Of a DNA stretch of 64,000 nucleotides, positions 14,911 to 52,572 are shown piece after piece (positions within the stretch are counted from its first letter, which is position 1; the number at the start of each line of letters is the position of its first letter). Origin of the DNA: Metaphire vulgaris (taxonomy: Eukaryota > Annelida > Clitellata > Crassiclitellata > Megascolecidae); contig CM030851.1 in NCBI GenBank assembly GCA_018105865.1, positions 13,148,904-13,212,903 of the forward strand, in the 5' to 3' direction. The notes under the pieces are model-generated. The model saw nothing but the letters and a program-made list of their open reading frames with translations. It was not told the origin of the DNA and searched no databases. Made by a program: the position numbers and the translations under genes.

Positions 14911-15086
14911 CTACATATTATGGTCTACAATCCGTTGCGAATTCCTCTGGAAGAGCGCACAGCGGAAACGGAAGTAGAAAGTGAAACAGACCAAGACGGA
15001 AAGACCGACAACGCCTGTCAGGACGCTTGCAAGTCTAACGACCGTCAGTGATGATGACTGTTGCGAATCGTCTTCTGCTGCTGGCG
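14911..15086 (-). CDS. IgR1, terminal exon (membrane segment and tail)
   Basis: The acceptor ttattaattattccag opens phase 1, matching the C-type domain exon at 15668. The exon encodes PAAEDDSQQSSS, a hydrophobic helix LTVVRLASVLTGVVGLSVLV, CFTFYF, and a basic tail (RFRCALFQRNSQRIVDHNM, stop). The 176-nt length gives exactly 58 codons plus two bases. An Arg lies near the outer end of the helix. Unlike IgR2-4 there is no mucin-like stalk exon and no CCCP motif. A short stop-to-AATAAA distance supports this as the last exon. Confidence 0.7.
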
Positions 15087-15317
15087 CTGGAATAATTAAT
15101 AAACAAAACTAATTATAACAATAGGCAGTGGCGTAGCCAGTGGGGGTAATGAGGAGCAGTGGTAATAAGCTGCGATAAAGTTATTAAACAGGTACGCCAC
15201 TCGATGCACTAGCGCCGTATCCGTGGCATTGCACGCCTGGCTGAGGGCTATAGCACTATAGTAACGGAGATCAGTGCCGCCCTATGAACCCGTGAGACTA
15301 GGAAAGATTTTTACCTT

Positions 15318-15660
15318 TTTGATGATGATGATGATGATGATGATGATTATTATTATTATTATTATTATTATTATTATTATTATTATTATTATTATTATTA
15401 TTATTATTATCAAAGTACCAGGGTACAAAGTACTGCGTGGTGAAATAATATACTGATTATGATGATGATGACGACGACAACGACGACGACGATGATGATG
15501 ATGATGATGATTATTATTATTATTATTATTACTAGTAGAAGTAGGCCTAGTAGTAGTAGCAGCAGCAGCAGTAGTAGCAGTAGTAGTAGTAGCAGCAGCA
15601 GCAGTAGTAGTAGTATCAATAGTAGTTGTAGTAGCTGTAGTTGTTGTTGTTGCTGCTGAT
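15318..15660. repeat. compound triplet microsatellite in IgR1 intron
   Basis: Consecutive arrays of GAT, TAT/ATT, GAC/GAT, TAG and CAG units fill the intron between the C-type and membrane exons and begin only a few bases past the donor. Confidence 0.9.
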
Positions 15661-15667
15661 GTGCTAC

Positions 15668-16015
15668 TGCTGTAAATCGAGCAACGTTGTTCGTAGTATG
15701 GAGCGTTGCTGGCAATCTCCGACGGCGGATCGTTGACCGGTGGACTGAAGGAGGCGACGCATTCGTAGAGCGTGTCGCCTGACGCTTGACGGGCGTCACG
15801 GATGACGACCGACGTCGCCGTGATTCCGGTCGAAGAGGAGGAATCGTCGACGGTGAACACGGCGTCGGTCACCAGGGCGCCATCTACGTTCCAGTTCAGA
15901 ACGGCGTCTATGGAATGTGTGAAGGCGCGGATGGCTGCGTAGGTGAAAGTACACATCAGTCGCGTGGAGTTGTTGGTCTGATTGGAAGAGGTCAACGCAC
16001 ACTTCGGACCTGATT
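15668..16015 (-). CDS. IgR1, C-type Ig-like domain exon
   Basis: A 348-nt phase-1 exon (acceptor actgtgcag, donor A/GTAGCA). It encodes SGPKCALTSSNQTNNSTRLM, C, then a C-strand W (VLNWNVDG), the F-strand motif TLYECVASFSPP and ASNAPYYEQRC. The C...W...Y-x-C pattern is the immunoglobulin fold signature. The block YEC...SFSPP...NAP...C is shared with the second domains of IgR2-4, so the exons are paralogous. Candidate N-glycosylation site in NNST. Extracellular by position in the gene. Confidence 0.78.
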
Positions 16016-16104
16016 CTGCACAGTGCAGGAAAATGGAAAAACACTAGGAAAACTATTAGGAAATTATGGCGTCGTATAACTGTTCATAAGTGGGGTCTTA
16101 GAAA

Positions 16105-16278
16105 CAGGGGCGTAGCCAGAATTTGATTGGGGGGTGTAGGCCTATAATGCAATTGGGGGATAAATATTTTAAAACTCTGAAAATCTGTAAAAAAACATAT
16201 TAAAATTTTTAAGGTAGCCTGATTCTAGGGGTATATACTGTATAATATATACCGATATACCCCGTCGCTACGCCTCTG
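16105..16278. mobile_element. hAT-like MITE (CAGGGGCGTAGC family), inverted
   Basis: Complete with both termini; a clear 8-bp duplication is not visible. Lies in the IgR1 intron between V and C exons. Confidence 0.7.
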
Positions 16279-16369
16279 TTAACAAGCTTGGAATCGTAGG
16301 CGCACACATGGACGAAAGAACGAAAGAGTGGGGCCTGGCCATAGCCTTGTTTTTCGATAGGTGGCGCCG

Positions 16370-16790
16370 CTGCCAGGAGTGGTTCCACGTTGGGGATGAC
16401 TGGGGATGCATCCCCCACCGGCCCATCAAAAATGCGTCTTCAAATGGAGGATGATCGTCTAAACTGATTAGCCTTGATGTATATCCACGAAGATATTGGA
16501 CATATCCATAGACAATGTCATCGACAAATCCAGCATTAGAAAACTTAATTTTGCACTGATTTTGTACAATCAGACTACTGTAAAATGGCTTTTAAACATT
16601 GTCAATTTTGAACATTATATTTTATAAATCAAATCTACAGATTTCTTCTAAACCGTTTATATATAATTCCTTTGACAATTGGAGGGATCTTCCTAGAAAT
16701 TCATTGCACCCCCTCCCCATCAACTACCTAGAATTCTTTGCATCCTCCCCCTACCAAGAGTTCTTGGAACCGCTACTGGTCGCTGTTCTT
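16370..16790. repeat. dispersed repeat shared with 54080-54380
   Basis: The blocks 'ttccacgttggggatgac' and 'aatcaaatctacagatttct' recur at 54.1-54.4 kb in the same order. Probably a non-autonomous DNA element. Confidence 0.6.
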
Positions 16791-16828
16791 TAGAATACAA
16801 AAGAAAACAACTGAAATGGCTGCATTCA

Positions 16829-16921
16829 GGATAATAATAATAATAATAATAATAATAATAATAATAATAATAATAATAATAATAATAACAACAACAACAA
16901 CAACAACAACAACAATAACAA
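16829..16921. repeat. (ATA)n/(ACA)n microsatellite
   Basis: About 20 AAT units followed by about 11 AAC units. Confidence 0.95.
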
Positions 16922-50365: not shown

Positions 50366-50510
50366 GGCTTTGGAACTCACTTCACGCATGCTAGTCATAA
50401 AAGGAAATTGGCAATATTGCTTGATGAACTAACTTAACGTGTTAGGTTCGTTCGCCGAGAACTGTCCACGGGACTTGGTCAACCTGGCTTTGGAACTCAC
50501 TTCACGCCTG
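50366..50510 (+). repeat. inverted partial copy of the IgR4 V-exon start
   Basis: About 95 bp (50390-50484), including AACGTGTTAGGTTCGTTCGC and CACGGGACTTGGTCAAC, equal the minus-strand sequence of 51284-51378 (intron end plus first codons of the V exon) but lie in opposite orientation. A direct repeat GGCTTTGGAACTCACTTCAC flanks the copy on both sides. Confidence 0.85.
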
Positions 50511-50960
50511 TTTTGTCGTAAGAAATTATAATCCGCCCCCCACAGAACAATATAATTTACAGGGTATTCAAAGAAATAAGCGTATTATACAAGAAACTGA
50601 AATGGTTCTAAGAGTTAATTTATCGTTAAACTGTCCAGAGTAAAAGAGTAAAATTGATTCAGAATACTGGTATTACTGTACTTTTAAATGGCTCTAAGAG
50701 TTAATATATAATTAAACTGTCCAGAGTAAAAGTGATTCAGAATGCTGGTGTTAGGCCTACTGTACTTTTTACATCAACTTCCCGAACCTGGTTTTTAAAA
50801 AAGGCGTGGGAACTCCGTTCCCGCGCGTTTCCACTGAAAAGGACACCGGAGAAAATAAATCGAGTCCATGTTCACGATAATAATTATTGACATTGCGTCG
50901 ATATCAAGTGCACGACGATGCCTGTGCAAGTCAACAACAACAACAACAACACCGACTTAC

Positions 50961-51311
50961 TGATGACGATAAGACCAGCGGCCGTTACACAGCTCGGTGG
51001 ATCTTGGTAGTTCAGGGTGTACATGCCCGCGGTGGAGTACGTCGCATTGTTCTGTGGCACGGCAGTTGCACTGAAGACGGTCAGTCCCGAATGATTCGCC
51101 GCATACATTGCCGGGACGGTGTCGAAGGGCGGCAGTACCGTGTCGTCGTAGTTCGTAAGGTCGGCGGGCAGGTTGAGGCCCCCCGGGGATGACGACGGGG
51201 CCACCTGCCACTTTACCTGGTCGGCGTTGTCGGCTCTCGGAAACGAAGCGGACTTGCCTTCGTAGACGACAGTGTTGACCAAGTCCCGTGGACAGTTCTG
51301 AGCGAACGAAC
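50961..51311 (-). CDS. IgR4, V-type Ig-like domain exon
   Basis: A 351-nt phase-1 exon (acceptor taacgtgttag, donor A/GTAAGT). It reads SFAQNCPRDLVNTVVYEGKS, ASFPRADNADQVKWQVAPSS, HSGLTVFSATAVP, YSTAGMYTLNYQDPPSCVTA. Like IgR2 V1 and IgR3 it keeps the C-strand Trp and AG-Y but has no B- or F-strand Cys; NCP and PSC near the ends may bridge. Candidate N-glycosylation in NHS and NAT. Confidence 0.82.
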
Positions 51312-51430
51312 CTAACACGTTAAGTTAGTTCATCAGGCAATAATAATGCCAATTTTCCTTTTATGACTAGCATTAGATAGCTAGCTTGATTAAAGCTATA
51401 ATGTTTGGAATAATGGAGGGTGCCAATAAG

Positions 51431-51463
51431 AGAGAGAGAGAGAGAGAGAGAGAGAGAGAGACC
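51431..51463. repeat. (GA)n microsatellite
   Basis: About 16 GA units. Confidence 0.9.
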
Positions 51464-51625
51464 ATGCAGGAATGGAGTGATGATATCGAGGAGTGGTGTG
51501 GAAGCAGTTTACAGGATCTTAGTCACAGAGCAACGGACAGGAAAGAATGGCAGAAAACTGCGAATAAGGCATTATCCACCAACGGGCGATGAGCCCACGG
51601 TTAATGATGATGATGATGATGATTA
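51464..51625 (+). mobile_element. LINE 3' end with (GAT)n tail, in IgR4 intron
   Basis: Plus strand MQEWSDDIEEWCGSSLQDLS, HRATDRKEWQKTANKALSTN, GR, stop, followed shortly by (ATG)n at 51606. C-terminus of a non-LTR retrotransposon. Confidence 0.65.
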
Positions 51626-52076
51626 GCGTAGCCGCGCCAGCGGGGGGGGTGTACGCGGGGGTCCCTATTCTGTTGGGGCCGGTCGTGGAATTTGTGCAAA
51701 GCCTTGAGTAATTTGCGGAGGGGTGGTGAGTTAGCATGATCGATCGAAGAGAATACGTGAATGTGCGAAGAACGACGCTCTTTTTTAACCCCGAAAACGT
51801 CGATGTGCCCCCCCGCTCCCTTATTCAGGAACCCTAGCTACGCCATTGATGGCAGGCTTCGTTTCAATTGCACAAATCGAACAGATATATTCAGATATAG
51901 AGCCCTATGCTTCACGTTTTATTTTAATACTTTGCCCAACTTCCGTCTGTTTACTGTCAAACTGATCAACAAGGATTCAAATTGAGTTAATGAATTCAAT
52001 TTGGTTGCGACATTTATAGTTTCTTCTTCTTCGGCAAATCAAACACAAAAACATCAAATGAACTGGAATCCAGTAT

Positions 52077-52485
52077 GGGGTGGCCCATTAATTACGTCAA
52101 CAAAATGAGGGAGGGGTTCGAAAAAGCTTGACAGCTGTTGATAGGGAGGAGGGGGAGTCAAGAGAAGTAAACGTCAGCAATTTCATTTTTTACAAATCAT
52201 CCAAAAATATAGAAGATTTCATGGAATACTATTTATTACAACGGAAAAAGGCCTGAAAAGTAAAAAAGGTCATCACCACCACATTTTGACACTCGATGAT
52301 CAAAAAATGGAAATAAAGATCTCATCACCGCAAAAAATAACCTTCTAAACTTTTTAGGATCTTATTGGGGAGTGGGTGGGCAACAGTTTTGACATAATTA
52401 TATGGGGGTCAATGAAAGTTGACAATTGTTGACAAGGGAGTGGAGGGTCAAAAATTGTTAGCGTAATTAATGGACAGCCCCTATT
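52077..52485. mobile_element. MITE-like element (GGCCCATTAATTACGTCA)
   Basis: Starts GGGGTGGCCCATTAATTACG and ends CGTAATTAATGGACAGCCCC, imperfect inverted termini. It ends about 20 bp from the IgR4 signal exon donor. Relatives at 13700, 32098 and 53360. Confidence 0.6.
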
Positions 52486-52505
52486 TGAAAAAAGAAGCAA
52501 CTTAC

Positions 52506-52572
52506 AGTGAAGCATCGACGCGTATAGTAGCAGTTGAAGCGAACCTTGCCTCCATGTTACCACCACCGCCAT
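52506..52572 (-). CDS. IgR4, signal-peptide exon (gene start)
   Basis: ATG opens MAVVVTWRQGSLQLLLYASM, LH, leaving phase 1 at T/GTAAGT; spliced it reads ...SMLHCSFAQNCPRD. The leader has a hydrophobic core LQLLLYA. 67 nt. Full IgR4 order: signal, V, C, stalk, membrane, tail; about 510 residues. Likely a type I surface receptor (inference). Confidence 0.78.

Follow-up and report, generated by a model that had tools for sequence, protein, structure and literature searches.

We analyzed a 64,000-nucleotide stretch of the genome of the megascolecid earthworm Metaphire vulgaris (here called the window; positions 13,148,904 to 13,212,903 of contig CM030851.1, our contig C20, in assembly GCA_018105865.1) and found a cluster of four minus-strand genes, A to D, at positions 14911..52572. 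The genes were rebuilt from splice sites and reading frames and consist of recurring exon modules, namely, signal, V-type immunoglobulin (Ig), C-type Ig, Thr/Ser stalk, and membrane exons. For all five V-type and all five C-type domains of the cluster, exons can be read that have an AG acceptor, a GT donor, and phase 1 on either side. Gene B carries two V-C units, while genes A, C, and D carry one each. The exons are as follows.

52506..52572, minus strand: gene D, candidate signal exon MAVVVTWRQGSLQLLLYASMLH; donor GTAAGT, phase 1
50961..51311, minus strand: gene D, V-type Ig exon, phase 1-1
49969..50301, minus strand: gene D, C-type Ig exon, phase 1-1
48783..49202, minus strand: gene D, Thr/Ser-rich stalk exon of 139 amino acids, phase 1-1
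47722..47948, minus strand: gene D, membrane exon; juxtamembrane motif WWFCCCP, tail short and basic; stop at 47722, donor possible at 47801
41513..41576, minus strand: gene C, candidate signal exon MAIVICQKYLQFVFLFTSLFQ
40661..40999, minus strand: gene C, V-type Ig exon
38995..39330, minus strand: gene C, C-type Ig exon, member of a fast-diverging subfamily
36608..37963, minus strand: gene C, mucin-like stalk exon of 451 amino acids with 42-bp (14-amino-acid) repeats
35812..36008, minus strand: gene C, membrane exon with FFCCCP; frame runs to a stop at 35812
29942..30005, minus strand: gene B, candidate signal exon MMKVVCKRHLFLAFLLNSLLQ
28594..28926, minus strand: gene B, V-type exon 1
27609..27950, minus strand: gene B, C-type exon 1
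26824..27264, minus strand: gene B, V-type exon 2 with a Thr/Ser/Pro linker at its start
25695..26045, minus strand: gene B, C-type exon 2; donor at 25695 or 25716
22395..23122, minus strand: gene B, stalk exon with 39-bp (13-amino-acid) repeats; frame broken (22395 / 22456)
20924..21065, minus strand: gene B, membrane exon with YFCCCP; 3' boundary set by analogy
17268..17621, minus strand: gene A, V-type exon carrying the canonical pair of Ig cysteines; its 5' boundary is uncertain
15533..16015, minus strand: gene A, C-type exon with in-frame Ala/Thr tract; donor uncertain
14911..15086, minus strand: gene A, membrane exon with short tail; stop at 14911

An initial annotation, made from the sequence of this stretch, had proposed four related minus-strand genes built of phase-1 modules with one or two V-C units, and both points agree with the exons found here. 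It had further described the splice phases and lengths as exact; phase 1-1 is readable in the Ig exons, whereas the lengths are similar only (333 to 441 bp for V-type and 330 to 348 bp for C-type exons in the window). The signal module that it took to be shared has candidates in genes B, C, and D, and nothing plausible appeared for gene A in the signal-exon scans; the V acceptor of that gene is also uncertain. Stalks rich in Thr/Ser are present in genes B, C, and D as had been described. The reported lack of a stalk in gene A is less clear, since its C-type exon continues in frame into the Ala/Thr tract.

Compared with the exons of gene D, the V exons of genes B and C show 46 to 57% identity and their C-type exons 51 to 55%, and the membrane exons of B, C, and D align with one another. 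Gene A is more distant, with 30% identity to gene D in its V exon and 33% in its C-type exon. The stalk frame of gene B is broken in the assembly, as the open frame stops at 22395 and from 22456 on a different frame is the open one, which reflects either a sequencing error or real decay. Five extra copies of the 39-bp stalk repeat lie at 24755-24952 beside 203-bp direct repeats, apart from the main array at 22309-22929, and are perhaps a duplicated stalk fragment. A search of the window against Rfam gave no matches.

Exon boundaries were also analyzed in a larger set of 99 distinct exons comprising those of the window and fetched paralogues. A boundary pair was found for 85 of them and was missing from 14, several of which are cut by the end of their locus. 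YAG acceptors were present in 37 of the 39 V exons and 44 of the 46 C-type exons with boundaries; since the script imposed phase 1-1 and favored YAG-type sites, these figures show that good sites exist and are no independent count.

Identity of the V-type and C-type domains

The C-type domain carries the hallmarks of an Ig domain in every one of the 46 exons, namely, cysteines at both canonical columns (B and F strands), the C-strand Trp, and the Tyr of the YxC motif. A profile built from it matched IgE constant domains best among PDB entries (E = 1.6e-5), followed by chains of Dpr-interacting proteins and Dscam, and the Pfam ig model matched 14 of 29 members (best E = 9.6e-7). On these sequence grounds, the assignment as an Ig domain is sound. 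A fifth cysteine (column 8) was observed in 36 of the 46 C-type exons. With it, the count of recurring cysteines in a V-C unit is odd, which could mean an interdomain or interchain bond.

The V-type domain is more unusual. Only two cysteine columns recur in at least 3 of 39 exons (in 36 and 37 exons, respectively), and neither is canonical; the V exon of gene A is the exception, with the canonical pair. When the predicted V-type structure was compared with known structures by Foldseek, nearly all of the 50 best of 895 rows came from antibody, T-cell receptor, PD-1, and other Ig entries, taken by entry and not chain by chain, and with a query model of low confidence. The models of both domain types are of low confidence because each was built from an alignment of five window sequences. 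The V-type domain is probably a divergent Ig-like domain.

No immunoreceptor tyrosine-based inhibitory or activation motif (ITIM or ITAM) was found in the tail frames of genes C and D up to their stops. Two ITIM-like sequences, TKYRYI after a membrane exon on contig C24 and TLYHII in the read-through frame of gene B, sit at the presumed splice donor or past it and are unconvincing. Searches of a protein database of 5.8 billion sequences, which may lack annelids, returned no match at E ≤ 10 for the V-C region of gene D (339 candidates) or for a V-C-V-C query (6,895 candidates).

Size and layout of the family in the genome

The genome searched comprises 728,303,522 bp in 246 contigs; for M. vulgaris, 41 chromosome pairs and a whole-genome duplication are reported in PMC7666815. 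With the C-type exon of gene C as the query, at least 150 matches were obtained (190 candidates, 150 scored; E = 2.3e-71 to 4.7e-9), of which 149 of 150 are free of stops. The V exon of gene D likewise gave at least 150 matches (185 candidates, 150 scored), 148 of 150 being stop-free. Matches to both exons are mainly clustered on nine chromosome-scale contigs, C20 (four regions), C24, C18, C7, C1, C32, C36, C21, and C23, and further ones lie on three small contigs (C55, C77, and C106). At E ≤ 1, 12 sites matched the membrane exon of gene C. Of these, eleven fall within V/C clusters of C20, C24, and C1 (two with weak values, E = 0.016 and 0.72), and none was found at this threshold in the clusters on C18, C7, C32, C36, C21, or C23.

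In five regions, exons on one strand were assigned to the same gene until a membrane exon was reached. This gave V/C counts of 13/10, 6/9, 0/1, 1/1, 8/8, 7/9, 9/10, and 12/13 per gene, and of 1/1, 1/1, and 2/2 for genes D, C, and B of the window. The near-equal numbers of V and C exons support the grouping, and we infer that genes are joined in this way and would hold from 1 to about 13 V-C units. The four genes of the window are small members at one edge of a much larger family. The initial annotation had seen a tandem, exon-modular cluster of the Ig superfamily that it could assign to no named family; this description is supported, and the family extends far beyond the locus. The Ig fold that it assumed is upheld for the C-type domain by profile evidence, and for the V-type domain the model is of low confidence and the cysteines that recur in the 39 exons are not the canonical pair, gene A excepted.

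The V exons of the family often open with a Thr/Pro/Ser linker. At C20:3.69 Mb, a V domain terminates a single open frame of 2,638 codons (L065, 356-8270, minus strand) that consists of 43% Thr and contains about 130 copies of a 54-bp repeat, and the other two frames of the same strand contain 37 and 246 stops across this span. V exons were also observed within open frames of 839 to 1,488 codons at C20:3.716, 3.725, 3.735, 3.746, and 13.446 Mb.

Divergence, selection, and exchange among copies

Pooled over close pairs, which are not independent of each other, the ratio of nonsynonymous to synonymous differences per site (pN/pS) was 0.40 for V exons (31 pairs) and 0.38 for C-type exons (45 pairs). 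At about 0.4, the family exons look like functional coding exons. Introns could be aligned in 34 paralogue pairs. In 30 of them, pN was lower than intron divergence, and in 2 it was higher at P < 0.01.

Divergence faster than that of introns is supported for one subfamily only, that of the C-type exon of gene C, whose four copies lie in the window, on C55, at C20:3.16 Mb, and at C20:13.85 Mb. In four of the six pairs, pN exceeded intron divergence (P ≤ 0.004, uncorrected), and dN/dS, with point estimates of 0.94 to 1.86, was above 1 in four of six pairs. Three of the copies share their 3' introns; in these, 52 of the 336 exon columns vary, compared with 21 of the 634 columns of that intron. 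Judged by eye, the changes fall into two patches of the domain, at roughly residues 50-67 and 88-97, while all four copies agree in the framework of cysteines, Trp, and YEC.

Across 31 V-C units, V identity and C identity were strongly correlated (0.775, a value reached in 0 of 2,000 permutations), which indicates that V-C units mostly duplicate as a whole. Of 20 unit pairs with C-type identity of at least 0.9, five had a V identity below 0.6, and all five involve the same unit. This unit has a swapped V, with a near-identical C-type domain paired with a different V domain.

Interpretation and relation to known systems

Our preferred explanation, to which we give a probability of roughly 60%, is a lineage-specific family of modular cell-surface mucin-Ig receptors of M. 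vulgaris, part of which is diversifying. A typical protein would possess a signal peptide and one to about a dozen V-type/C-type Ig pairs, held off the membrane by Thr-rich mucin-like linkers or stalks. A single membrane helix would be followed by a cysteine cluster, perhaps a site for a lipid anchor, and a short basic tail. The Ig pairs may bind ligands on other cells or microbes, the two variable patches of the C-type domain being the putative contact surface, and duplication and exon exchange would have diversified the family into a repertoire of receptors for recognition or adhesion. Their function is most likely one of binding at the surface of the cell, in recognition or adhesion. The diversifying gene C subfamily argues for recognition.

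Several observations weigh against a receptor family that diversifies for recognition. By the comparison with introns, most measured paralogue pairs are under purifying selection, and the conserved, mucin-rich members with many units argue for a role in adhesion or the glycocalyx. The V, C, and membrane exons of gene A are absent among the matches listed in the genome-wide searches, a correction to the initial annotation. Within the gene C subfamily, the short alignable 5' flank differs by 13 to 15% between the copy at C20:13.85 Mb and those on C55 and at C20:3.16 Mb, and in a comparison of C55 with C20:3.15 Mb, dN was above both flanks in just three of seven exon pairs. Furthermore, synonymous sites exceed introns in two of six subfamily pairs (P = 0.0046 and 0.014), and conflicting 2:2 sites occur in patches, with 4 switches in 9 steps. 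The last two features are in line with the view that the fast exon reflects interlocus gene conversion or relaxed constraint rather than positive selection, a doubtful but serious possibility; dN > dS in four of six pairs and the unchanged framework residues speak against it. Exchange between copies may contribute to the pattern.

The same family could instead comprise structural mucins of the surface or mucus, in which the Ig pairs serve as spacers, or as modules of homophilic adhesion, within giant proteins of the glycocalyx, cuticle, or epidermis. The 2,638-codon Thr-rich frame, the genes that seem to hold 6 to 13 V-C units, the prevailing purifying selection, and the tails of genes C and D, as read, without ITIM or ITAM are all in line with this. 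Yet the proteins encoded in the window are short, cross the membrane once, and contain no more than two V-C units. In addition, divergence in the C-type exon of gene C outpaces that of its introns in four of six pairs, and the family is split over many clusters. We consider the structural explanation less likely than the receptor family. Recognition in some members and adhesion or a glycocalyx role in others may both be true. Chance open frames or pseudogenes are hardly credible: the broken stalk frame of gene B would fit them, whereas 297 of 300 listed exon matches are stop-free and the pooled pN/pS is about 0.4.

A more specific proposal is that the family provides the allorecognition or graft-rejection receptors of earthworms, as a multilocus, exon-exchanging mucin-Ig set in which small members such as gene C would have highly polymorphic C-type domains, an independent annelid counterpart of Alr or the major histocompatibility complex (MHC). 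The excess of exon over intron divergence in the gene C subfamily and the general resemblance to the organization of Hydractinia Alr favor it. On the other side, C55 had been considered as an allele of C20:3.16 Mb because of near-identical introns and colinear blocks (92 to 99% identity over about 15 kb), but a sample taken further along was not colinear and did not support allelism. We judge this proposal improbable. The initial annotation had read the locus as one for innate immunity or self/non-self recognition; the family is a candidate for the recognition of partners, microbes, or foreign tissue by earthworm cells, and a putative part in graft rejection is possible.

Tandemly duplicated receptors with V/C ectodomains are known from teleost NITRs and other multigene families of the Ig superfamily, and an exon that diverges more than its introns is known from exon 2 of MHC class II. 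No ITIM or ITAM was found in the tails of genes C and D as read, which would set them apart from NITRs; these also belong to a different phylum, and MHC class II is a different molecule that displays peptides. The vertebrate CEACAM/PSG genes are similarly clustered and, according to PMC4079198, encode V-type domains that lack the canonical disulfide and, after them, C-type domains that possess it. However, CEACAM V domains are described there with an Arg-Asp salt bridge, whereas two other cysteines recur in the earthworm V domain, and in the earthworm family V and C domains alternate as repeated pairs with mucin linkers. The V profile matched CEACAM1 entries at E = 0.35 to 0.62, a noise-level similarity.

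Hydractinia Alr is likewise an invertebrate complex of unusual Ig superfamily genes, with 41 members carrying V-set and I-set domains (PMC11999971), and Alr1 and Alr2 reportedly act in allorecognition and are polymorphic (PMC8129030). Nothing in the consulted parts of these two papers describes V-C pairs alternating on mucin giants for Alr. The likeness drawn to NITR and Alr is one of organization. Molluscan FREPs form an Ig-containing multigene family of a lophotrochozoan as well (PMC7588048); their own trait is the joining of Ig to a fibrinogen domain, for which no search was made in the earthworm genes. The word immunoglobulin does not occur in the main text, supplements aside, of the annelid genome papers PMC7666815 (M. 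vulgaris), PMC7846840, PMC7253469, PMC8460440, and PMC12130307, and a search of titles and abstract beginnings, mostly outside subscription journals, yielded no description of an earthworm mucin-Ig family, which is apparently undescribed.

Elsewhere in the window, paired-box (Pax) exons at 935-1138 and 1529-1696 on the minus strand adjoin the cluster; in the second, a TGA interrupts the stretch matched by the profile. Several paired boxes elsewhere in the genome form close pairs on different contigs (L001/L007, L002/L003, and L004/L005), as expected from the reported genome duplication. A 583-amino-acid open frame rich in Lys, Asp, Glu, and Gln (8904-10655, minus strand) overlaps about 13 tandem copies of a 123-bp repeat (9232-10834), and two copies of a GC-rich stretch with open frames rich in Ala, Glu, Pro, and Arg are found about 3 kb apart at 56051-56409 and 59032-59379.

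The family has an unusual build, its V-C Ig pairs being carried along mucin tracts that can reach thousands of residues, and its V-type domain is unusual as well, with a different recurring cysteine pair. With surface Ig proteins forming a large, clustered, and in part fast-evolving family, the question of recognition in earthworms becomes testable, and if the proposal of allorecognition were true, the long-sought receptors of earthworms would have been found.

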